From contig NZ_CP133470.1 in assembly GCF_031191205.1 (NCBI RefSeq), positions 689,501 through 753,500 on the forward strand: a DNA stretch of 64,000 nt, given 5' to 3'. Source of the DNA: Haemophilus parainfluenzae ATCC 33392 (GTDB lineage: Bacteria > Pseudomonadota > Gammaproteobacteria > Enterobacterales > Pasteurellaceae). Under the pieces are notes generated by a model, which was given only the letters and a program-made list of their open reading frames with translations, was not told where the DNA came from and ran no database searches. Every line of letters starts with the position of its first letter. The stretch's first letter is position 1. Below are positions 3,917 to 64,000 of the stretch, one piece after another. The position numbers were made by a program, and so were the translations under genes.

Positions 3917-6019
3917 TTATTTTTTACGCGCTTCAATTACTGCAGCAGCAACACTTGTTGGCGCTTCAGCATATTTTAACGGTTCCATTGAGTATGATGC
4001 ACGACCTTGAGTTTGTGAACGTAAGTCTGTTGCATAACCGAACATTTCAGAAAGTGGAACTTCTGCATCGATTTTAACAACGAATTCGTTCGCTTCTTGA
4101 CCGTTAACCATAGCACGACGACGGCTTAAGTCACCGATTACATCACCCACATACTCAGGTGGAGTTTCTACTTCAACTTTCATGATTGGCTCAAGTAGAA
4201 CTGGGTTTGCTTTAGCGAACGCTGCTTTAAATGCTAAAGAAGCCGCTAATTTAAACGCTAATTCTGATGAGTCAACATCATGGTATGAACCGAAGTGTAA
4301 ACGTACACCAAGATCTACTACTGGGTAACCCGCTAATGGACCAGATTTAAGCTGTTCTTGGATACCTTTATCAACTGCAGGAATGTATTCACCAGGGATT
4401 ACACCACCTTTGATTTCGTTTACAAATTCGTAACCAGGACCTTCTGGATCTAATGGGTATAAGTCAATAACAACATGACCATATTGACCGCGACCACCAG
4501 ATTGTTTTGCGTGTTTACCTTCCACATCGTTAACACGAGTACGGATAGTTTCACGGTAAGATACTTGTGGTTTACCGATATTAGCTTCCACTTTGAACTC
4601 ACGTTTCATACGGTCAACGATGATGTCTAAGTGTAACTCACCCATACCAGAAATAATGGTTTCACCAGATTCTTCATCAGTGTGAACACGGAATGAAGGG
4701 TCTTCTTGAGCTAGACGACCTAACGCAAGACCCATTTTTTCTTGGTCAGCTTTAGTTTTAGGTTCTACTGCTACAGAGATTACTGGCTCTGGGAATTCCA
4801 TACGTTCAAGGATGATTGGTGCTTCGATTGCACATAATGTATCACCCGTAGTTACATCTTTTAAACCGATTGCTGCAGCGATATCGCCCGCACGAACTTC
4901 TTTGATTTCTTCACGTTTATTAGCGTGCATCTGTACGATACGACCAAAACGTTCACGTTTTTGACGTACAGAGTTTAATACTGTATCACCAGAGTTAATT
5001 ACACCTGAGTACACACGGAAGAAGGTTAAGTTACCTACGAATGGGTCAGTTGCAATTTTGAATGCTAATGAAGAGAACGGCTCATCATCGCTTGCGTGAC
5101 GTTCACCTTCAGTTTCATCTGGGTTGATACCTTTGATTGCTGGAATATCAGTTGGTGCTGGTAAGTATTCAACAACTGCATCAAGCATCGCTTGAACACC
5201 TTTGTTTTTGAATGCAGAACCACAAGTTACCAAGATGATTTCGTTTGCTAATACGCGTTGACGAAGACCTGCTTTGATTTCTTCTTCGCTTAAGTCTTCA
5301 CCACCAAGATATTTTTCCATTAATTCTTCAGTTGCTTCAGCTGCTGCATCAACAAGGTTTTGACGCCATTCTTCACACGCTGCTTGCATATCTGCCGGAA
5401 TATCTTCATAAGTGAAGGTCATACCTTGGTCAGCTTCGTTCCAGTTGATCGCTTTCATTTTGATCAAATCAACAACACCAGTGAAACTTTCTTCTGCACC
5501 GATTGGAAGTTGAAGAGGAACAGCATTCGCACCTAAACGAGTTTTAAGTTGTTCAACAACACGTAAGAAGTTAGCACCAGTACGGTCCATTTTGTTTACG
5601 AACGCAATACGTGGAACTTGATATTTGTTAGCTTGACGCCATACAGTTTCAGACTGAGGTTGAACACCACCAACTGCACAGTAAACCATTACCGCACCAT
5701 CAAGAACACGCATAGAACGTTCTACTTCAACAGTAAAGTCTACGTGTCCCGGGGTATCGATAACGTTGATACGGTGTTGTGGGAACTGTTGTGACATACC
5801 AGACCAGAATGCGGTAGTTGCCGCAGAGGTAATGGTAATACCACGCTCTTGTTCTTGTTCCATCCAGTCCATTGTTGCTGCACCATCGTGTACTTCACCA
5901 ATTTTGTGACTTACACCAGTGTAGAATAAGATACGTTCAGTGGTAGTAGTTTTACCAGCATCAATGTGCGCACTAATACCGATATTACGATATCTTTCAA
6001 TAGGGGTTGTACGAGCCAT
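3917..6019 (-). CDS. fusA: Translation elongation factor G
   Basis: EF-G is the GTPase that drives translocation and, with RRF, recycles ribosomes. At 700 residues it has the full bacterial length. G1 [15 protein letters not shown] is near residue 19, DTPGHVDF is G3 and NKMD is G4; the RGITI switch I motif is present. The C-terminal half carries the EF-G domain IV/V motifs, including GGRGQYGHV. It sits between rpsG and tuf in the usual str operon order. It is the housekeeping copy, with no sign of truncation or of a FusA2-type paralogue. Confidence 0.99.
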
Positions 6020-6103
6020 TATTATAACCTTGTTAAGTTTAATATCTGTTTATATAAGGGTAAGGCTTCATCGAGGATGAAGCCCTTAAATTTTAAAAGC
6101 GTA

Positions 6104-6637
<534 letters not shown>

Positions 6638-6720
6638 TTAAAGTGAGCTAATGTGATACTGGAGTTTCTGATTTAAATTTTTACTAATTTAGACGTTTGG
6701 CCTTACTTAACGGAGTTCCA

Positions 6721-7110
<390 letters not shown>

Positions 7111-7353: not shown

Positions 7354-8739
7354 ATGTTACGTTCATTTATTTTTCACTTACGTTATTTCTATCACAAAAA
7401 GCTTCGACAAACGCATCGTATCTCTCATAAAACACTCGAGTTTGTATGTTTACTGATTGGAGCGACGTTTGTTGCCCTCTTTTCCTTTGGATTTGCCAAG
7501 CTAGCCGATATTGGACTTGAATTTAATGCCTATTGGTCTGCTAAATACCCTCTCACCGTTTGGATCGTTTTACCGCTTGGTCTTGCTTTTCTCACCTGGT
7601 TTACCGCTAAATACACGCCTTATGTTGGCGGCAGCGGTATTCCACAAGTGATTGCCTCCATTAATCTTCCTTACAATGGCTATAAAACGAAACTGGTTAA
7701 ATTTCGCCAAACCATTTGGAAAATTCCACTTACTTTCTTTGCAATGGTTATCGGTGCGTCTGTTGGCCGTGAAGGCCCTTCTGTTCAAGTGGGTGCTGCA
7801 GTCATGCTCGCTTGGGGAAATTTCTGTCGTAAATATAACTTTGCTTTCCGTGGCTTAAGTACGAATGAACTTATCGCAACGGGTGCTGCAGGCGGTCTTG
7901 CCGCCGCATTTAATGCGCCTTTAGCTGGGGTAATTTTTGCCATCGAAGAACTTGGTCGAGGCGTGATGTTACGCTGGGAGCGACGCGTATTGCTCGGTGT
8001 ATTAGCGGCTGGTTTTATTTTAGTAGCGATTCAAGGCAATAGCCCTTACTTTCCTGCCTATAAAGGTGCAACAGCTATTCCCTATTTATATCTTTGGCTT
8101 GCTATTTGTGGCGTAATTTGTGGCGTACTGGGTGGTATATTTGGGCGACTCCTTGCAAAAGGATTAGCGGGACTCTCTCCACTCAAATGGCGTGATTGGA
8201 TTCGCAAACACCCTATTTACATTGCTTTATTGCTCGGTTTAATACTTGCCGCGATAGGGACCTACAGCGAAGGGCAAACCTATGGAACAGGTTATGATGT
8301 TGTCGCAAGAGCATTAGAAGGACAACTCGTTTCGCCTGAAGTGGGGATACTAAAACTCTTCGCAACGGTTACGACTTATTGGAATGGCATTGCGGGTGGG
8401 ATTTTTACCCCATCTCTCACCACCGGTGCTGGTATCGGCACTATGTTATGGGAAATCAGCAACGGCATGGTCGATCAACGTTTCTTGGTCATTTTATGTA
8501 TGGCCGCCTTCTTAGCTGGCGGCACACAATCTCCTGTGACCGCCAGCGTAGTGGTGATGGAAATGACAGGGGCTCAACCTGTGCTGATTTGGCTCTTGAT
8601 TTCCAGTATCATTGCCTCCATAATTTCGCGCCAATTTAGTCCGAAACCTTTTTACCACTTTGCGGCTGGACGTTTCCGTCAACGAATGCAGGAACAACAA
8701 GCAGAAGATCTTCGCCGTAACGAGATTCAAGAGAAATAA
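7354..8739 (+). CDS. ClC-family chloride channel / H+-Cl- exchanger
   Basis: An inner-membrane ClC protein of 461 residues with the three signature loops that form the anion path: GGSGIPQ near residue 92, GREGPSVQ near 138 and GGIFTPSL near 348. The glutamate in GREGP is the gating glutamate kept in proton-coupled exchangers. There are many hydrophobic segments and a charged C-terminal tail rich in Q and E. I prefer the ATG at 7354; an upstream in-frame TTG at 7282 would add 24 residues without family support, although neither start has a good ribosome binding site. dusA begins four bases after the stop, suggesting cotranscription. Confidence 0.9.
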   Translation: MLRSFIFHLRYFYHKKLRQTHRISHKTLEFVCLLIGATFVALFSFGFAKLADIGLEFNAYWSAKYPLTVWIVLPLGLAFLTWFTAKYTPYVGGSGIPQVIASINLPYNGYKTKLVKFRQTIWKIPLTFFAMVIGASVGREGPSVQVGAAVMLAWGNFCRKYNFAFRGLSTNELIATGAAGGLAAAFNAPLAGVIFAIEELGRGVMLRWERRVLLGVLAAGFILVAIQGNSPYFPAYKGATAIPYLYLWLAICGVICGVLGGIFGRLLAKGLAGLSPLKWRDWIRKHPIYIALLLGLILAAIGTYSEGQTYGTGYDVVARALEGQLVSPEVGILKLFATVTTYWNGIAGGIFTPSLTTGAGIGTMLWEISNGMVDQRFLVILCMAAFLAGGTQSPVTASVVVMEMTGAQPVLIWLLISSIIASIISRQFSPKPFYHFAAGRFRQRMQEQQAEDLRRNEIQEK

Positions 8740-55687: not shown

Positions 55688-55774
55688 CATAAAAAATATT
55701 TTTATTTTATTGAAAAAATAACCAAGTGTTTTATGGTTACCTCTATCGTTGTAAGCCAAATAGAGGATGTAAAA

Positions 55775-56845
55775 ATGGCAAAATTAGAAATAAAAAATAT
55801 TACAAAAAAATTTGGTGACTTTTACGCAGCAAATAATATTACTTTTACCGCTGAAGAAGGCGAGTTTGTCACCTTATTAGGACCAAGTGGCTGTGGTAAA
55901 ACCTCCTTATTAAAATTAATCGCTGGATTTCATGTAGCTGACGAAGGTGAAATCCTTATCGGAGGAAAAAATGTTAACCATGTTCCTCCAGAAAAACGCA
56001 ATACAGCCATGTGTTTCCAATCTTATGCCCTTTTCCCTCACCTCAACGTTTCTCACAATATTTGCTATGGTTTAAAGCAACGTAAAATTGATATTGAAGA
56101 ACAAAAACAGCGTTTAAATCTCGCATTGAAACAAATGGATTTAGAATTTCATAAATTGAAATTACCCAATGAGCTTTCTGGAGGCCAACAACAACGTGTC
56201 GCATTAGCCAGAGCCATGGTAACTCGTCCAGATGTGATTTTATTTGATGAGCCGCTTTCTAACTTAGATGCTAAATTACGCGAAAATGTACGTTTTGAAA
56301 TAAAACAACTCTCAAAGCAATATAATTTGACTAGCATTTACGTGACTCACGATCAGGCTGAAGCCCTAACCATGTCAGATAAAATCATCGTGTTAAATAA
56401 GGGCTCTATTGAGCAAATTGGCTCACCTCAAGATATTTATCATCATCCTAAAAACCGCTTTGTGGCAGATTTTATTGGAATTGCCAATATCACGGAAGCC
56501 AATGTGAAAAACATCGGTGACAATCTTTATGCAGTTAGTTCTATTTTTGGCGATTTCACCGTATTTTCTGAGAAAAAACCGGAATCAGAACGAATTTATA
56601 TTTGCTTTCGACCAGAAGACATTGAATTGTTACCAAACGCACAAACGGAAGCGGAAAACCAAATTACAGTAGATATCATTAACACCGCTTTTATGGGCAA
56701 TATCACGGAAGTGCAAGGCATCATTAAACGTAATGATGAAGAGAAAAAATTACGTCTTCAACTAACAAAATGCCCGAATTTGAGCGATAAACTCACCTTT
56801 ACGATTCCCCGCCATGCGATTAAATTCTTGGAGTCCGTAAAATGA
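55775..56845 (+). CDS. PotA-like ABC transporter ATP-binding protein
   Basis: A 356-residue ABC ATPase with a C-terminal TOBE domain, like PotA/FbpC/MalK-type importers. Walker A GPSGCGKTSLL is near residue 38, Q loop CFQSYALFPHL, signature LSGGQQQRVALARAM, Walker B VILFDEPLSNLD and YVTHDQAEAL. The start at 55775 follows AGAGGA and replaces the longer 370-codon frame. The stop overlaps the first permease start (ATGA). The substrate is unknown, but a CRP-like site upstream suggests a carbon source. Confidence 0.93.
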   Translation: MAKLEIKNITKKFGDFYAANNITFTAEEGEFVTLLGPSGCGKTSLLKLIAGFHVADEGEILIGGKNVNHVPPEKRNTAMCFQSYALFPHLNVSHNICYGLKQRKIDIEEQKQRLNLALKQMDLEFHKLKLPNELSGGQQQRVALARAMVTRPDVILFDEPLSNLDAKLRENVRFEIKQLSKQYNLTSIYVTHDQAEALTMSDKIIVLNKGSIEQIGSPQDIYHHPKNRFVADFIGIANITEANVKNIGDNLYAVSSIFGDFTVFSEKKPESERIYICFRPEDIELLPNAQTEAENQITVDIINTAFMGNITEVQGIIKRNDEEKKLRLQLTKCPNLSDKLTFTIPRHAIKFLESVK

Positions 56846-57711
56846 AAAGTCTCAAAAATGATGTAAAAGCATGGTTATTGCTATGCAGCGGTTTAGGTAC
56901 GATCCTATTTTTAATGGGATCTACGTTCTACATTGTCGTCTCTCAAAGCCTTGGTTTATACAGTATGGGCGGGGAAGAAAGCCAATTTAGTTTGGAGTAT
57001 TGGCAAGCCGTATTAAATAGTCCTGTATTCCAAAATTCGTATATTTATTCCGTAAAAGTGTCTTTACTAGGGGCGATTTTATCCATCATCGTGGCTTATC
57101 CCATTGCCATGTGGTTGCGTAAAAAATTACCAGCCAAGGTAACAATTATAACTATCTTGCGGGCGCCTATGTTGGTACCTGGATTAGTTGCAGCCTTCTT
57201 GTTCGTCAATATGATTTCTTACCACGGCATTCTTAACGAAGTATTCGTTTATTTAGGCATTTGGGACGAACCGAAAACCCTACAAAATGACGAATTTGGC
57301 TGGGGGGTAGTAATTTTACAAATGTGGAAAAACATTCCTTTTGCTTTAATTCTTATTGGTGGCGCGGTTAATTCGTTGAAAACCGATTTATTAGATGCCG
57401 CTGCAAATTTAGGTTCGAATCCTTGGCAACGTTTTCGTTATGTGATCTTCCCTCTAACCTTAGGTGCAGTACAAGTTTCCTTTATTTTAATATTTATCGG
57501 CGCACTCGGTGATTTCGCCTTTTATAGCATTGCCGGTCCTCGCAGTACCTATTCTTTAGCGCGTTTAATGCAAATGTCTGCCTATGAATTTGAAGAATGG
57601 AATCAAAGTGCGGTCATGGCATTAACGATTATGTTGACCTCTGCCTTCTTCACCATCCTAGTGTCATTATTGATTAAACCATTAGCCGTCAAACGTGGAG
57701 AAGTCAAATGA
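56842..57711 (+). CDS. PotB-like ABC transporter permease
   Basis: A 289-residue permease of the spermidine/iron/phosphonate (MOI) class with about six hydrophobic segments and the coupling loop DAAANLGSNPWQRFRYVIFPL. It overlaps the ATPase and the second permease by four bases each. The two permeases are separate genes here; in AfuABC and FbpABC systems they are fused, which argues against an iron or AfuB identity. Confidence 0.9.
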   Translation: MKSLKNDVKAWLLLCSGLGTILFLMGSTFYIVVSQSLGLYSMGGEESQFSLEYWQAVLNSPVFQNSYIYSVKVSLLGAILSIIVAYPIAMWLRKKLPAKVTIITILRAPMLVPGLVAAFLFVNMISYHGILNEVFVYLGIWDEPKTLQNDEFGWGVVILQMWKNIPFALILIGGAVNSLKTDLLDAAANLGSNPWQRFRYVIFPLTLGAVQVSFILIFIGALGDFAFYSIAGPRSTYSLARLMQMSAYEFEEWNQSAVMALTIMLTSAFFTILVSLLIKPLAVKRGEVK

Positions 57712-58559
57712 ATAGTTCCGCACAAATCACAACGAAAAATGGTCGATTAATCGCACGTATTTCCTTAATTTTCTTTATTCTTGCTAATTTTATTTGGTTA
57801 TTCTTACCCTTTTTAATGGCAGGTTTATGGTCATTGGTAGATCCCGCTAAACCGTGGAGTTATCCAGATATTTTCCCTCAATCATTATCTTTTGAGCGTT
57901 GGAAAATTGTATGGGAAACCACCTCTTTACCTGAAGCAATGTTTAATAGCTATACCATTGCGCCTACGGTTTCTCTGATCACGATTTTACTCTCTCTCCC
58001 AACAGCTTATGCATTTGGACGTATGGAGTTTAGAGGTAAAAAATTAGCCGAATTATTGACACTGATTCCATTGGTTATTCCAGGCATGATTATTGCCCTA
58101 TTCTTTAGCCGTATGTTATTGGATTTAAATATTAATAATCCATTCATCGGTATTGTTATTGGGCATGTTGTACTCACGTTACCTTATGCTATTCGGATTT
58201 TATCCGCGGGCTTTTCTTCTGTCCCACAAGATCTCATTGATGCTAGCCGTGACTTAGGTGCATCTAAATTTACCGTTTTCAAAGACGTGTATATGCCGAT
58301 GTTAAAACCCAGTTTTTTAGCATCAATTATTTTCTGTTTAGTGAAAAGTATTGAAGAGTTTGCTATCGCTTTCGTTATCGGCTCACCAGACTTTATTACC
58401 GTGCCAACCATTTTATATTCCTTCCTCGGTTATTCTTTTATTCGTCCGAATGCAGCCGTTGTATCGATTATTTTGTTGGTACCAAACATTATTTTGATGA
58501 TGATTATCGAAAAATTGTTGAAAGGGAATTATCTCTCTCAATCCACAGGAAAAGCATAA
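57708..58559 (+). CDS. PotC-like ABC transporter permease
   Basis: A 283-residue permease with the loop DASRDLGASKFTVFKDVYMPMLKPS and about six membrane segments. It pairs with the preceding permease. A 19-base gap with a good CAAGGAG site separates it from the binding-protein gene. Confidence 0.9.
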   Translation: MNSSAQITTKNGRLIARISLIFFILANFIWLFLPFLMAGLWSLVDPAKPWSYPDIFPQSLSFERWKIVWETTSLPEAMFNSYTIAPTVSLITILLSLPTAYAFGRMEFRGKKLAELLTLIPLVIPGMIIALFFSRMLLDLNINNPFIGIVIGHVVLTLPYAIRILSAGFSSVPQDLIDASRDLGASKFTVFKDVYMPMLKPSFLASIIFCLVKSIEEFAIAFVIGSPDFITVPTILYSFLGYSFIRPNAAVVSIILLVPNIILMMIIEKLLKGNYLSQSTGKA

Positions 58560-58578
58560 TTTTCACAAGGAGCATCTT

Positions 58579-59670
58579 ATGCAAAAAAATATCCGTAAAC
58601 TTTTATCCATTGGTCTTACCGCTGCTGCCTTAGCTGTCAGTAATTTTGCTTCAGCTTCCACGGACTTAAGTGGTAAATCTTGGAGTGAAATCGAAGAACT
58701 GGCCAAAAAAGAAGGAAAATTGACAGTTAGCGTTTGGTATTTGCAGCCGCAATTCCGTAATTTTGTCAAAGAATTTGAAAATCAATACGGCATTAAAGTC
58801 AAAGTACCTGAAGGCACCTTGGACGGTAATATCAATAAACTGATTGCTGAAAAAAATCTAGAAACCGGCAAAATGGATGTGGTTGTGTTAAATGCTGACC
58901 GTTTAGGCAACGTAGCGAAAAATGACATTCTTGTAAAACTCAATAACTTACCAAATTTCGATAAATTAAATCACCACTTACAAGGTGTTGAATTAGGCGA
59001 TATGGCTTTAGGTTACTGGGGTAATCAAACCGGTCTAGCTTATGATCCTATGCGAATTAAAGAAGAGGAATTGCCACAATCTTGGGCAGACATGGAAAGC
59101 TATATTGATAAAAATCCAAAAAAATTCGGCTATTCAGATCCAAATGGCGGCAGCTCGGGTAATGCCTTCATTCAACGAGCTTTAGTGTACATCAATGGTG
59201 ATTATGATTATCGTACCGATAAAATCGATGAAGCACAAATTGCTAATTGGAAGAAAACCTGGGATTGGTTCAGTAGTAAAAAAGATGCGCTAATCCGTAC
59301 CGCTTCGAATGCTGATAGTTTAACCCGTTTAAACGACGGTGAGTTAGTAATTGTCTCCGCATGGCAAGATCACTTGTTCAGCTTGCAAAAACAAGGTGCA
59401 ATTACTGACCGTTTAAAATTCTATGTACCAAAATTTGGAATGCCTGGTGGTGGTAATGTTGTAACCGTAGCAAAAAATGCGCCGAACCCAGCCGCATCAC
59501 TTGTTTTCGTGCATTGGATTACTTCACCTGAAGTACAACAAAAATTAAACCAAGAATTCGGTGTTCGTCCACTCAATAGTGAATCTGGTTTGAAAGATAC
59601 TATTTTCTTCTCAACACCATGGCGTAAAGCCGAAATGGAAGCCTTCACGAAAGAGGTTATTTCGAGATAA
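58579..59670 (+). CDS. Periplasmic substrate-binding protein of the PotD/YnjB-like ABC system
   Basis: A 363-residue class II binding protein with a signal peptide ending NFASASTDL. GKLTVSVWYLQPQFRNFVKEFENQYGIKV is a typical first strand-helix, and KMDVVVLNADRLGNVAKN and GYWGNQTGLAYDP line the likely cleft. The C-terminal APNPAASLVFVHWITSPEVQQKLNQ is shared by iron, polyamine and sugar-phosphate binders. No iron-binding tyrosine pair is evident. Substrate unknown. Confidence 0.85.
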   Translation: MQKNIRKLLSIGLTAAALAVSNFASASTDLSGKSWSEIEELAKKEGKLTVSVWYLQPQFRNFVKEFENQYGIKVKVPEGTLDGNINKLIAEKNLETGKMDVVVLNADRLGNVAKNDILVKLNNLPNFDKLNHHLQGVELGDMALGYWGNQTGLAYDPMRIKEEELPQSWADMESYIDKNPKKFGYSDPNGGSSGNAFIQRALVYINGDYDYRTDKIDEAQIANWKKTWDWFSSKKDALIRTASNADSLTRLNDGELVIVSAWQDHLFSLQKQGAITDRLKFYVPKFGMPGGGNVVTVAKNAPNPAASLVFVHWITSPEVQQKLNQEFGVRPLNSESGLKDTIFFSTPWRKAEMEAFTKEVISR

Positions 59671-59740: not shown

Positions 59741-61126
59741 TTACAACCAAACAAAATAAGTCATGCTGCCGATAATGGCGATACAGAATAGATTTAAAAT
59801 CAAACCGACTTTCGCCATATCAAGTTGTTTCACATTGCCTGTTGCAAACACAATAGCATTTGGCGGTGTGGCGATTGGTAGCATAAATGCACAACTTGCC
59901 CCACAAGCGATAATTGCGGCTAAAGCGATAGGCGGTAAATTCATGGATTGTGCCACTGAAATCACAATTGGCATAATCAATGCAGCACTGGCGGTATTCG
60001 ATGTAAATTCTGTTAGGAAAATAATAAATGCGGTTATCACAAAGCAAAGTACCCAAAGCGGTTTGGTTTGTACAAACTGAACGATGCTATCCGCCATAAT
60101 CTTACTGGCACCCGAATCTTTCATCACGATACTGAGTGTTAAACCACCACCGAATAAAACGAGCACGCCCCATTCAACACGTTCTTGGATTTCTTTCCAG
60201 CTTGCCACACCTGAGATACAAATAAAGATCACCACACATAGTGCAATAACCGTATCAAAGTTTTCGATTTTTTTCGGCAATTCAAGAAGAGAGCTAATCC
60301 ATGGATTTAGAAGAGAACTGAAAAGCAGCATAATCGCCATGCCGATAAAGATCAGTAAAGTAATGATATTTTTTCGATTAAAGCTGACTTTCTCAAGTGA
60401 CGGATTAAATTCCACAGAAAAGTCTGGACGTAAAATTACCCATAAAGAAAAAATCATTGAAGGCACAAGTAAGACCATCACTGGAAAGCCGTAACCTAGC
60501 CATTCCGTGAAAGTCACTGGAATTTGAGATGCCAAAATCGCATTCGGCGCACTGCCCACTAAGGTACCAATACCACCAATACTGGCACTAAATGCCATAC
60601 CTAATAACACGAAGGCATACAACCGATGATTTTTCTCTGCATTGATACCTTTTAACATCCCCATCGTAAGCGGCAACATCATCGCTGCTACGGCGGTGTT
60701 GTTAATCCACATAGAAAGAAATGTAGTTGCAGTAAACAGATAGGTGATAGAAAGTTTTAAGTTTCCTTTGGCTAAACGGATAATGTAATTCGCAATAATC
60801 TTATCTAGATTCTGAATTTGTAACACCGCAGCCACCACAAATCCCCCAAAGAACATATAAATAATTGGGGTAGAGAATGGTGCAAGCGCTTTTTGTGTAT
60901 TAATCAAACCTAATCCAATGGCCACAACAGGCACCATAAGGGATGTCACGGTAATATTAAAGGCTTCCGTTAACCATAAAATACCAATAAAAATCAGCAG
61001 GGCTAACCCGCGGTTCTCTTGGGAAGAAAACGGCAGTATTTTGATTAATACCAACATGAAGACAAAGTCTAAGGAAAGAATAAGAAGACTTTTATATTTA
61101 GAGAGAAAGGTTTGTTGAGTTTGCAT
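59741..61126 (-). CDS. DASS/SLC13-family sodium-coupled anion (dicarboxylate-type) transporter
   Basis: A 461-residue inner-membrane carrier of the divalent anion:Na+ symporter family. It has the two family hairpin motifs: FLSMWINNTAVAAMMLP (NNT, first half) and FTSNTASAALIMP (SNT, second half), which form the sodium and carboxylate sites in VcINDY. Many hydrophobic segments are present. The start at 61126 follows AGGAGA; an upstream TTG is rejected. Length is the same as I recall for H. influenzae HI0608. The substrate is probably succinate, malate, fumarate or a related sugar acid. Confidence 0.92.
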   Translation of the reverse strand: MQTQQTFLSKYKSLLILSLDFVFMLVLIKILPFSSQENRGLALLIFIGILWLTEAFNITVTSLMVPVVAIGLGLINTQKALAPFSTPIIYMFFGGFVVAAVLQIQNLDKIIANYIIRLAKGNLKLSITYLFTATTFLSMWINNTAVAAMMLPLTMGMLKGINAEKNHRLYAFVLLGMAFSASIGGIGTLVGSAPNAILASQIPVTFTEWLGYGFPVMVLLVPSMIFSLWVILRPDFSVEFNPSLEKVSFNRKNIITLLIFIGMAIMLLFSSLLNPWISSLLELPKKIENFDTVIALCVVIFICISGVASWKEIQERVEWGVLVLFGGGLTLSIVMKDSGASKIMADSIVQFVQTKPLWVLCFVITAFIIFLTEFTSNTASAALIMPIVISVAQSMNLPPIALAAIIACGASCAFMLPIATPPNAIVFATGNVKQLDMAKVGLILNLFCIAIIGSMTYFVWL

Positions 61127-61206
61127 ATACAATCTCCTATAAAACGATAGGGGAGATCATTAATTAGCATTTAACCGAAAAAATTGAAACATATTTTTAA
61201 CAAATT

Positions 61207-61281: not shown

Positions 61282-62508
61282 TTATCGTTGCACACGTGCT
61301 TGAATACGTTCTGGCAATCTTAATCCAACGAGAGCAACAAGGACAATTGTCCAGAATAAGGTCACATACACAAGGGCTGAACCAAGTCCGACTCTTTCGC
61401 TAAGTGCGGCGGCAATCACTGGAGACACCCCTCCACCAATCGCGGCGAAGTTATAGATGAAACCAATACCTGTGCTTCGCATTTCAGCTGGGAAGAAAGT
61501 CGCCATATATTTTGGTACTAAACCGGCAATCCCTAAGTTAGTTGCGAGTAAGAAGAAGAGCAGTGCACCAAGCGCTAATACATTATTTTCCGGCAAATAG
61601 AATACTGGGAAGAGGAAGAAAAGTGATAACAATAAGCTATATACAAAGGTTTTCTTCTCACCCAATTTGTCCCCGATAAAGCCTGCAATTAAAGTACCGA
61701 TAAGAATACCAAAGCCCGCCCAGAACATCAGTGATTTCACATTTTCAGCATAGCCGTTTTCTTTGAGGTAAAGTGGAAGTAAGCCCACTACCGGCCAGTT
61801 TACGGAGAAAATAGAATAACAAACTAAGAAAATAATTAAGGTAATTGGTAATTGTTTTTTAGTGAATAGGTCAGTAAGTGGAACTTTATTCACTTTACCC
61901 GCCGCTTTTGCTTGTGCCCATTCTTCACTTTCAGGTGCATGGCGACGAACATAAAGCACTAAGGCGACTGGCGCTAAACCGATGAAGAAAGCCATACGCC
62001 AACCATAAGTTTGAGACACCCAAGGGATCACTTGAGAAGCAAGAATATTACCAATAGAGAAGCCACTTACTAAAAATGCACTGGCTTTTGTACGTAAATG
62101 TTGTGGCCAACTTTCAATGGCATAAGAGGAAGAACAAGCATATTCACCCGCCATCCCCATACCGATAATCATACGGAAAATGAAAAGCCAAATATAACTG
62201 GTGGATAGGCCGCACAAGAATGTGCCAACGGAATACGTGATAATGGAAACAATCATCGCCAAACGGCGGCCATATTTATCGGCAAAGCTACCAAAAATCG
62301 CCCCACCTAATGGACGAGCCACAAAGGCCGCAAGTAATAATGTGGATGTTTCCGTTGTGCTCATGGCGAATTCTTTTTGAATATCCAAAAGCACATAAGT
62401 GATAAGCATATAATCGAAGCCATCAAAAACATAACCTAACCAAGCCGCAAATAACGCTTTTTTTTGCGTAGGACTGACTTCTTTATACCATGGTAGTGAT
62501 GTTGTCAT
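61282..62508 (-). CDS. NanT-like MFS transporter (sugar-acid:H+ symporter type)
   Basis: A 408-residue MFS protein with about twelve membrane segments. LPWYKEVSPTQKKALFAAWLGYVFDGFDYMLI resembles sialate and aromatic-acid transporters; FGSFADKYGRRLAM is the MFS loop 2-3 motif, and MGMAGEYACSSSYAIESWPQHLRTKASAFLVSGFSIG closely follows the NanT pattern. It is about 90 residues shorter than E. coli NanT, which has two extra segments. A CRP-like site and a GntR-type palindrome lie upstream, and the regulator gene is divergent. Confidence 0.88.
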   Translation of the reverse strand: MTTSLPWYKEVSPTQKKALFAAWLGYVFDGFDYMLITYVLLDIQKEFAMSTTETSTLLLAAFVARPLGGAIFGSFADKYGRRLAMIVSIITYSVGTFLCGLSTSYIWLFIFRMIIGMGMAGEYACSSSYAIESWPQHLRTKASAFLVSGFSIGNILASQVIPWVSQTYGWRMAFFIGLAPVALVLYVRRHAPESEEWAQAKAAGKVNKVPLTDLFTKKQLPITLIIFLVCYSIFSVNWPVVGLLPLYLKENGYAENVKSLMFWAGFGILIGTLIAGFIGDKLGEKKTFVYSLLLSLFFLFPVFYLPENNVLALGALLFFLLATNLGIAGLVPKYMATFFPAEMRSTGIGFIYNFAAIGGGVSPVIAAALSERVGLGSALVYVTLFWTIVLVALVGLRLPERIQARVQR

Positions 62509-62539: not shown

Positions 62540-62555
62540 TGTGGTTTAGATCACA
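62540..62555 (-). promoter_or_regulatory. CRP-like site upstream of the MFS gene
   Basis: TGTGGTTTAGATCACA matches TGTGA-N6-TCACA with one mismatch. It is 32 bases upstream of the MFS start codon on the plus-strand numbering, so the promoter must overlap or lie beyond it. Confidence 0.65.
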
Positions 62556-62582
62556 GAATTTAAAATCACTGCTAATTTCTGC

Positions 62583-62610
62583 TTGCATAAATAAAGATAA
62601 GACGTATGAT
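62583..62610 (+). promoter_or_regulatory. Candidate promoter of the GntR-family regulator gene
   Basis: TTGCAT (62583-62588), a 16-base spacer and TATGAT (62605-62610). The -10 box lies within the palindrome described separately, so regulator binding would block it. Confidence 0.55.
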
Positions 62611-62617
62611 GTCTTAT
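62597..62617. promoter_or_regulatory. Perfect palindrome, probable operator of the GntR/FCD regulator
   Basis: ATAAGAC, a 7-base spacer GTATGAT, and GTCTTAT form perfect arms. It lies in the divergent region between the MFS gene and the regulator gene and overlaps the regulator -10 box, which is the expected place for an autoregulatory operator. Confidence 0.65.
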
Positions 62618-62670
62618 GTCAATTAAAGAGAATGAGAGCTGGATCACAAATTCAGAAAATAGATTAGAAA

Positions 62671-63393
62671 ATGAGAACAGAAATGAAAAAAACAAGTAAA
62701 AAAGAAGCAAGTCTCGTTTTACAGGATAAAATCAAATCACTCATCATCAAACAAAATCTTAAATCTGGCGATTTGATGCCAACAGAAAATGAGTTGATTG
62801 AACAACTTGGTGTGAGCCGTTCCAGTTTGCGTGAGGCCATTAAATCTTTAGAGGCGCTACACATTTTAGACATTCGCCATGGCGTCGGCACCTTTGTGAG
62901 TGAATCCTCTCTTGTACCAATGATCCGTGGATTAAGCTTTCACACCCAGCTGAATTTACATAATGATCATAATCAGCTGATTAATATTTTGGATATTCGG
63001 GAAATTTTGGAATACGGTTTCGCTCCGATGGTTTTAGGAAAAATTAGCCAAGAACAGACCGCACTTTTGCAAAAATCAGTGGCCAATATGGAAAAAAATG
63101 CCCGTGAGCAAAAATTTTCGCCTAAAGATGAGTACCACATTCATTTAAAACTTTATGAACCATTAAATAACCCGTTACTGATTCAGTATTTAGATGCGTT
63201 TTGGCAAATTTATCAGCAAGTAGAAAAAGGCCTACCGCCACCAACACTTTCTCCTGAAAAATTAGCCATGCAACACCGTGAATTAATTGATGCGGTAGAA
63301 GCACATGATTTGGTACGCATGCAACGCGCGATCTTGCAATATTTCCAAAGTATTCGCCAACGCTTACAACAAGGAGGGCATGATGCAAACTAA
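62671..63393 (+). CDS. GntR/FadR-family (FCD domain) transcriptional regulator
   Basis: A 240-residue regulator: an N-terminal winged helix (QNLKSGDLMPTENELIEQLGVSRSSLREAIKSLEALHILDIRHGVGTFV) and a C-terminal all-helical FCD domain with DIREILEYGF, DEYHIHLKLYEPL and QHRELIDAVEAHD, the aspartate/histidine pattern that often binds metal and a carboxylate or sugar-acid ligand. An alternative ATG lies four codons in (62683); neither has a strong binding site. It is divergent from the MFS gene and overlaps the oxidoreductase gene. Confidence 0.9.
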   Translation: MRTEMKKTSKKEASLVLQDKIKSLIIKQNLKSGDLMPTENELIEQLGVSRSSLREAIKSLEALHILDIRHGVGTFVSESSLVPMIRGLSFHTQLNLHNDHNQLINILDIREILEYGFAPMVLGKISQEQTALLQKSVANMEKNAREQKFSPKDEYHIHLKLYEPLNNPLLIQYLDAFWQIYQQVEKGLPPPTLSPEKLAMQHRELIDAVEAHDLVRMQRAILQYFQSIRQRLQQGGHDAN

Positions 63394-64000
63394 TGGACTA
63401 AACATTGCCTTAATCGGCTGCGGCTTTTTTGGCGTTCAGTTGGCTTCCGCATTTGATAAAGCCCAAGCAAACTTAATTGCGGTGACCGATATCAATCCTT
63501 CTCTTGCACAAAAACTTGCAGATCAATACGGCAGCCAAGCCTTTTTTAGTGTGGAAGAAATGTTGGCTGAAACCAAACCTGATTTAGTGGTTATCGCCAC
63601 ACCAAACTACGCCCATTATTCTCCGGCTATTTTGGCGTTAAACGCTGGCTGTCATGTCTTTATTGAAACGCCTTTTACCTTAAGCTCTTCTCAAGGCCAA
63701 CATTTACGCCGTCTTGCCGAAGAAAAAGGCAAATTCATTTTTGTGGGCCATTTAGAACGTACATTACCTGGCATGTTGAAAGTCAAAGCGGCTTTAGAAC
63801 AAGGAAAATTAGGCCGCATTACGGTAGCTCGTGCCATGCGTCAGCGTTGGATTGAAAATCTACCAAACAAAGAATGGTGGAAATTAGATGCCAATCTTAC
63901 GGGCGGCGAGCTTTTCCACCTTATTCACGAACTGGATTTACTCTGTTGGTTATTAGGCGATATTGAGGCGGTCTTTGCTCAAGCGGCTAATCAAGCGCAT
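63383..64000 (+). CDS. Gfo/Idh/MocA-family oxidoreductase (C-terminal part outside window)
   Basis: A NAD(P)-dependent sugar or sugar-acid oxidoreductase, cut by the window end after 206 codons from the chosen start. The Rossmann motif ALIGCGFFGVQLA is near the N-terminus. VIATPNYAHYSPAILALNAGCHVFIE follows, and RQRWIENL and GGELFHLIHELDLLCWLLG are in the second domain, where HELD carries the usual active-site aspartate and histidine. The lysine of the EKP motif is replaced: the sequence reads IETPFTL. The start follows AAGGAGGG; the ATG at 63380 is also possible. Overlap with the regulator gene implies one transcription unit. Confidence 0.9.
   Translation, partial: MQTNGLNIALIGCGFFGVQLASAFDKAQANLIAVTDINPSLAQKLADQYGSQAFFSVEEMLAETKPDLVVIATPNYAHYSPAILALNAGCHVFIETPFTLSSSQGQHLRRLAEEKGKFIFVGHLERTLPGMLKVKAALEQGKLGRITVARAMRQRWIENLPNKEWWKLDANLTGGELFHLIHELDLLCWLLGDIEAVFAQAANQAH

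Follow-up and report, generated by a model that had tools for sequence, protein, structure and literature searches.

A compact gene cluster at the end of the 64,000-nucleotide stretch of Haemophilus parainfluenzae DNA analysed here (the window) raises the question of which compound it serves and how it is controlled. An earlier note, made from the letters alone, had described an MFS carrier divergent from a GntR/FCD regulator whose gene overlaps that of a Gfo/Idh/MocA oxidoreductase, and had proposed a sugar-acid-type substrate while stating that no known pathway name fits. The layout is confirmed in every part by open reading frames and Pfam matches, and comprises the following features (L003 coordinates are those of the same-genome continuation):

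61282-62508, minus strand: nanX, MFS transporter, predicted importer of 2,7-anhydro-Neu5Ac (Pfam MFS_1 and Sugar_tr)
62540-62555, plus strand: CRP-like site TGTGG-N6-TCACA, one mismatch, between the operator and nanX
62594-62622, minus strand: sigma-70-like promoter TTGACA-17-TATCTT from a promoter scan, directed towards nanX and spanning the operator
62597-62617, strandless: candidate operator ATAAGAC-GTATGAT-GTCTTAT, an exact 7-7-7 palindrome with core AGACRTATGATGTCT
62633-62648, plus strand: CRP-like site TGAGA-N6-TCACA, one mismatch, between the operator and the regulator gene
62671-63393 (start at 62671 or 62683), plus strand: GntR/FCD regulator (Pfam GntR and FCD)
63380 or 63383 (ATG) to 64456 (L003:4957), plus strand: Gfo1, Gfo/Idh/MocA protein (Pfam GFO_IDH_MocA)
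64467-65573 (L003:4968-6074), plus strand, beyond the window: NanOx/NanY, the second Gfo/Idh/MocA gene

The 3' end of the regulator gene overlaps the start of Gfo1 by 14 bp (ATG 63380) or 11 bp (ATG 63383), and the window's end cuts Gfo1. Extension past position 64000, a check that the earlier note had suggested, places a further gene ten bases after Gfo1 and starting 467 bases past the window end; it is NanOx/NanY, the last gene of a regulator-Gfo1-NanOx operon. Its product matches the RgNanOx structure 6z3b (E 2.7e-189) and E. coli YjhC (E 9.5e-173; structure 6o15) over nearly the full length. With 66.3% identity to E. coli NanY over 365 residues, it lies above both similarity thresholds taken from papers for NanOx/NanY membership (at least 49% or at least 60% identity). 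An NCBIfam search of the gene returned no NanOx model, only inositol and other dehydrogenases below cut-off. Equivalents of RgNanOx K93, K163, H175, H176 and H178 are all present in the alignment (5/5), and mutation of each of these is reported to have abolished activity (PMC7535918). The same source describes NanOx of another Haemophilus species as active in converting 2,7-anhydro-Neu5Ac to Neu5Ac.

The carrier had been called NanT-like. Its identity to E. coli NanX is 50% and that to NanT 44%, and it does not have the 52-residue stretch that gives NanT its extra two helices. At the positions of EcNanX R63, L228, N232, T268 and L321 it has R, I, N, T and L, so that it carries NanX-type residues, with isoleucine for L228 as a conservative departure, and the NanT letter at 0/4 of the sites that PMC13398819 gives as discriminating the two carriers. 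Its best NCBIfam match, PRK12307, scores 503 bits against a cut-off of 637. We predict that it imports 2,7-anhydro-Neu5Ac, and perhaps also Neu5Ac2en.

A name for the pathway is therefore at hand after all, the next gene being a NanOx/YjhC orthologue and the carrier NanX-type, and the suggested sugar acid would be 2,7-anhydro-Neu5Ac. The genes nanE-nanK-rpiR-nanA-nagB-nagA lie together elsewhere in the genome (G000 about 1373300-1378900; L089:6310-11917); within the 18 kb read there, no siaPQM genes accompany them. Because of NanOx, the NanX-type carrier and these nan/nag genes, we conclude that the locus is very probably an anhydro-sialic acid scavenging cluster; a predicted local repressor, probable CRP stimulation and a selected Gfo1 complete the reading. 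The predicted route is strongly supported by sequence comparison: 2,7-anhydro-Neu5Ac released by the intramolecular trans-sialidases of other organisms would be imported by NanX, NanOx would turn it into Neu5Ac with NAD+, and the products of nanA, nanK, nanE, nagA and nagB, encoded elsewhere in the genome, would degrade the Neu5Ac. No match to the BNR_2 sialidase family (PF13088), the sole sialidase family searched, is present in the genome. Lactate, glycolate and glucuronate pathways were considered and rejected, as the regulator's matches to LldR, GlcC and UxuR are far below cut-offs; more generally, non-sialate sugar-acid pathways are rejected because the NanOx gene settles the pathway.

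The substrate and enzymes of the NanX/NanOx system are already known and are not novel here. As far as our literature searches went, two things are new: a regulator dedicated to the locus, with an operator of its own and a changed effector site, and the lysine-less NanOx paralogue that accompanies it. Among the papers listed by searches on the regulator, Gfo1 or NanOx in Pasteurellaceae, none was recognisable as describing the regulator or Gfo1; 'nanox' occurs once in a 2026 Pasteurellaceae taxonomy paper (PMC13076348).

How widely the cluster is shared was examined in 140 Pasteurellaceae genomes (Gfo1 at E <=8.1e-114, regulator at E <=7e-82, NanOx at E <=1.2e-199). Gfo1 is found in 33 of them, the regulator in the same 33, and NanOx in 38 including all 33; genomes G068, G069, G070, G098 and G076 have NanOx without the other two, truncated in G076. 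In 33/33, NanOx and Gfo1 share a contig and are no more than about 7 kb apart, whether the importer is NanX or of the ABC type. Full-length NanX is present in 16/33 genomes, with a fragment in G076, outside the 33. In all nine loci that were opened among the other 17 genomes, an ABC set stands directly before NanOx and divergent from regulator-Gfo1; gene order, size and initial letters were the basis for reading it as an ATPase, a binding protein and two permeases. The ATPase of the G051 set is in two frames; the G105 set, the only one scanned with Pfam, consists of a MalK-type ATPase, an SBP_bac_1 protein and two BPD_transp_1 permeases. The transporter has thus been swapped and the core kept. 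A scan of named genomes gave 54 loci, 21 of them from Pasteurellaceae, with NanX in 8 and relatives of the G105 ABC set in 13; regulator, Gfo1 and NanOx are present in 21/21, the locus end cutting NanOx in most ABC-type loci. Three named H. parainfluenzae loci are 98-100% identical to the four proteins of the window's locus. Among 394 genomes drawn from the order, Gfo1 (E <=1e-45) occurs in four, all Pasteurellaceae.

Two side observations concern the surroundings of the cluster in the genus. A decayed same-genus locus in G076 (L077; G076:C5:50000-66000), at 7431-8703, has truncated NanX and NanOx, and a regulator or Gfo1 orthologue was not found there. In the present genome, the two genes after nanOx (window-equivalent 65760-67153; L003:6261-7654) match the PADLOC candidate-defence models PDC-M15A and PDC-M15B (E about 2e-32 and 2e-29); locus L117 of a named H. 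parainfluenzae lacks them at the corresponding position. The earlier note had staked its reading on downstream genes of carbon metabolism: the operon's last gene agrees with this, although the genes after it look unrelated, including, by eye, those beyond the PDC-M15A/B pair.

The intergenic region between nanX and the regulator bears on control. The perfect 7-7-7 palindrome proposed there is exact at 62597-62617, and ATAAGAC-N7-GTCTTAT is the sole match in the window at up to two mismatches (0.23 expected). Since 19/100 shuffles had at least one match, the palindrome in the window alone is not decisive. Conservation is more telling: among the 31 upstream regions compared (from all of the 33 genomes except G023 and G052), the core AGACRTATGATGTCT, at up to two mismatches, lies upstream of the regulator orthologue in 30, compared with a mean of 0.10 of 31 and a largest count of 1 in 100 dinucleotide shuffles. 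The one region without the core, from G086, is also without a CRP site, and its layout differs. The core is found at two places in 10/15 ABC-type regions. In its own 2.14 Mb genome it has a single site at 0-1 mismatches; a genome-wide palindrome regulon was rejected on this count, with four more sites at two mismatches and 2 in a reversed control.

The sole scanner-called promoter across the palindrome reads towards nanX, not the regulator. TTGACA-17-TATCTT matches the consensus at 10/12 positions, which is weak alone (2 sites found and 0.8 expected in shuffles); its hexamers and spacing are exact in 15/16 MFS-type relatives. Because this promoter spans the palindrome, one bound repressor could shut nanX and, presumably, the regulator operon as well. 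We predict that the GntR/FCD protein locally represses nanX as well as the operon that encodes it, and that it would do so by binding the one conserved palindrome in the divergent intergenic region.

A CRP-like site had also been claimed, and the intergenic region contains two, each with one mismatch to the tested consensus TGTGA-N6-TCACA, as expected of candidate members of the CRP regulon. The number of such sites in the window is unremarkable alone (4 found, 2.1 expected). Sites with up to one mismatch recur, however, in the regions of 26/31 relatives (15/16 MFS-type and 11/15 ABC-type), set against a mean of 0.47 and a largest count of 3 in shuffled regions, and two sites are present in 14/16 MFS-type regions. 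By our own count, the sites are not at canonical distances from the nanX-directed promoter. With site conservation observed, CRP-cAMP would probably bind and stimulate expression. The picture of a compact catabolic locus under local GntR/FCD and probably CRP control thus appears sound, with a conserved operator.

What the regulator senses can be approached by comparison with E. coli NanR. The nearest NCBIfam models are LldR and NanR, both far below cut-offs; on the NanR model PRK03837 the regulator scores 87.5 bits against a cut-off of 260. By eye, the window's intergenic region has no GGTATA repeat of the (GGTATA)n NanR operator, and the conserved motif is AGACRTATGATGTCT. In E. coli NanR, Asp172, His176, His222 and His244 are reported as zinc ligands, the zinc contacting the carboxyl and a hydroxyl of Neu5Ac, and Arg128 forms a salt bridge with Neu5Ac (PMC8012715). 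At D172, H176, H222, H244 and R128 the window's regulator has E, H, H, Y and R, a departure from the NanR ligand set. Among 31 Pasteurellaceae regulators, Arg128 is kept in 31/31, Asp172 is replaced by Glu in 31/31 and His244 by Tyr in 31/31; His176 is kept in 29 and is Gln in 2, and His222 is kept in 14, including the window's, and is Tyr in 17. Three actinobacterial relatives keep all five residues (R, D, H, H, H). The NanR contacts 165, 168, 203, 214, 215 and 218 differ in most members, Pasteurellaceae and actinobacterial alike.

Some metal binding may remain, because His222 is kept in 14/31 and position 172 is Glu in 31/31. 2,7-Anhydro-Neu5Ac has no free anomeric hydroxyl, and a changed metal site would therefore fit an anhydro effector. 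With the carboxylate arginine of NanR kept and the zinc ligand His244 lost, we infer that the effector is probably the anhydro-sialate itself. An ancestral effector is hard to trace, as the regulator's and Gfo1's relatives in actinobacteria, which keep ancestral residues, are found in loci whose substrate is unproven. According to PMC7315737, neither 2,7-AN nor 2,3-EN seems to relieve E. coli NanR; the present locus would offer a small dedicated regulator with one operator for the study of anhydro-sialate sensing.

The remaining question is Gfo1. The oxidoreductase in the window had been taken for the oxidising enzyme; it is instead a divergent paralogue of NanOx without the catalytic lysine, and not the pathway enzyme. 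In the 31 genomes read of the 33, the EKP lysine position of Gfo1 is T in 28, V in 2, P in 1 and K in none, and the aligned Gfo1 rows P0047 and P0053 have T at the motif position. In the tree Gfo1 is the sister clade of NanOx. A decaying pseudogene is rejected by a dN/dS of 0.050 in the least saturated pair, and Gfo1 is yet under purifying selection. An inositol or UDP-GlcNAc dehydrogenase is rejected as well, the matches being below cut-off and such structures scoring lower than NanOx. We therefore take Gfo1 to be, in all likelihood, a selected protein of the NanOx fold that lost its catalytic lysine, and consider three roles for it, in order of preference an altered enzyme, a co-regulator of the repressor and a partner subunit of NanOx.

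The role that we favour, tentatively and at a little under an even chance, is catalytic: although it lacks the EKP lysine, Gfo1 would be an active enzyme whose chemistry has changed, and its substrate would be some other sialate, such as an anhydro form with a different linkage or an intermediate that NanOx releases. With few exceptions Gfo1 keeps the GxGxxG loop, the acidic residue that follows strand two of the NAD fold, the equivalents of K163 and H178 and a conserved WWK...GG..H/N.IHELD pocket. Its predicted fold resembles that of RgNanOx over the full length in an alignment-based model, which replaced a single-sequence prediction (pLDDT 44.9), and this, with the low dN/dS, is consistent with catalysis. 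Actinobacterial relatives carry the EKP lysine and, in Rhodococcus, sit in sialate-like catabolic loci. However, the lysine is absent from Gfo1 in 31/31, the K93A variant of RgNanOx lost both activity and NAD+ binding (PMC7535918), and the protein evolves faster than NanOx: in 18 more distant genomes, identity to the window's copy is 51-57% for Gfo1 and 76-87% for NanOx.

The second role, which we consider rather unlikely, is that of a ligand-binding co-regulator of the GntR/FCD repressor that reports anhydro-sialate or the NAD(H) state. Yeast Gal80 offers a comparison for a protein of this kind. Regulator and Gfo1 genes occur in exactly the same 33/140 genomes, adjacent by coordinates in 33/33 and overlapping in 27/30 measured loci; the 5/38 genomes that have NanOx without one of them are without both; and both proteins have lost ligand or catalytic residues that are kept in the actinobacterial relatives read. 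Operon neighbours of regulators are usually enzymes, however, and this regulator, which keeps Arg128, may sense its ligand directly; among the papers listed in a literature search, none dealt with a Gal80-like Gfo/Idh/MocA/EKP protein. A fuller version, in which anhydro-sialate sensing in Pasteurellaceae is split between a zinc-eroded GntR/FCD repressor and a dead NanOx-like Gfo1 as its ligand-binding co-regulator, seems doubtful to us. If true, a paralogue of a catabolic enzyme would have become a ligand-binding co-regulator of its own pathway.

Gfo1 could also, though we judge this unlikely, have no catalytic function and serve as a partner subunit through which NanOx is activated or stabilised. 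Its presence solely where NanOx is present (33/33) and its position as sister clade would suit such a role, and dead paralogues that activate a live one are known (PMC3663545). But in the nine ABC-type loci opened Gfo1 is in the regulator's operon and not in that of NanOx, and no Gfo1-like partner accompanies the activity of RgNanOx, of E. coli NanY or of a Haemophilus NanOx. Altered chemistry thus remains the preferred role, and the conserved lysine-less paralogue poses a defined, testable question.

The diet served by the locus depends on which other importers the genome encodes. Other MFS matches of the carrier in the genome are at most 30% identical, and a Pfam search found no match to the TRAP protein DctP (PF03480) anywhere in the genome. 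An SSS-type SiaT was rejected: the three SSS proteins are PanF, PutP and a PRK10484-type protein, and the SiaT structure 5nv9 scores only 81 bits. A SatA-type importer was likewise rejected for the SBP_bac_5-like neighbour at L003:8433-10109, which is HbpA/DppA-like (3m8u, E 4.6e-269) and matches structure 5z99, which we take to be SatA, at only E 3.9e-33. Across these MFS, DctP, SSS and SBP_bac_5-like candidates, no sialate importer besides NanX was recognised, and the genome may hold a Neu5Ac importer of another kind. Also beside nanX, at 55733-59670 and 59741-61132 of the window, are a DASS-family anion symporter gene and an ABC importer set, made up of an ATPase, two permeases and a binding protein as judged by eye from the ORF list.

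That the carrier and enzymes handle Neu5Ac or Neu5Ac2en, with NanOx merely clearing by-products, is very unlikely: NanOx/YjhC hydrates Neu5Ac2en too, E. coli YjhB is credited with both dehydrated forms (2,7-AN and Neu5Ac2en; PMC7315737) and Neu5Ac might enter through this carrier for want of another recognised importer, but the carrier has NanT-type residues at none of the four sites and the two characterised NanX proteins, from E. coli and Salmonella, are reported to support growth on 2,7-AN only (PMC10955332). We thus retain 2,7-anhydro-Neu5Ac as the predicted substrate. A nameless-looking locus gains a name and a substrate, and the bacterium, a common commensal of humans, is predicted to be able to live on sialic acid in a form that other bacteria release; as the genome revealed no recognisable Neu5Ac importer, its sialate diet may consist mainly of anhydro-sialate.

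Compared with known sialate systems, the locus combines familiar parts in a different arrangement. The R. gnavus nan cluster (SAT2/SatXYZ ABC importer, NanOx, IT-sialidase) shares NanOx; among the relatives that have ABC sets, the scanned G105 set has an SBP_bac_1 binding protein, the Pfam class of the ST7 anhydro-Neu5Ac importers (PMC8754123). The present genome differs in having no BNR_2 match, a different regulator and an MFS importer. Relative to RgNanOx (6z3b) and YjhC (6o15), Gfo1 has neither the EKP lysine nor an equivalent of H176, and is only about 25% identical. The H. influenzae regulator SiaR is of the RpiR type and its importer of the TRAP type, whereas here we find GntR/FCD, MFS and no DctP match in the genome. 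Shared with the H. influenzae nan/siaPT system are sialate genes under a local repressor plus CRP and a divergent intergenic region, where CRP and SiaR are described as acting together on the nan and siaPT operons (PMC2946308).

The nan clusters of Actinomycetia are reported to include fadR (COG2186) in nearly all cases and nanOx in a few (PMC8754123). Relatives of the regulator and Gfo1 are present in Streptosporangium, Microbacterium and Leifsonia loci; there, in contrast to the Pasteurellaceae, Gfo1 keeps the lysine and the regulator its zinc histidines. Rhodococcus loci L136, L137, L139 and L140 have two or three Gfo/Idh/MocA genes followed by NanA-/NanE-like and in places NanK-like genes. 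In Paenibacillus (L142, L144, L146 and L147, near 6000-7100), EKP-bearing NanOx-like proteins, 42-45% identical to NanOx/NanY, are encoded near sugar-type ABC permeases.

With E. coli nanXY (yjhBC) the locus shares an MFS NanX and a NanOx/NanY for 2,7-anhydro-Neu5Ac, a set of core nan genes that lies apart from it in the genome, and GntR/FCD control. In E. coli several nan operons have NanR as their common regulator, whereas the regulator here would be a dedicated, in-locus one with its own operator that is not (GGTATA)n, in a divergent layout that includes an extra, lysine-less NanOx paralogue.
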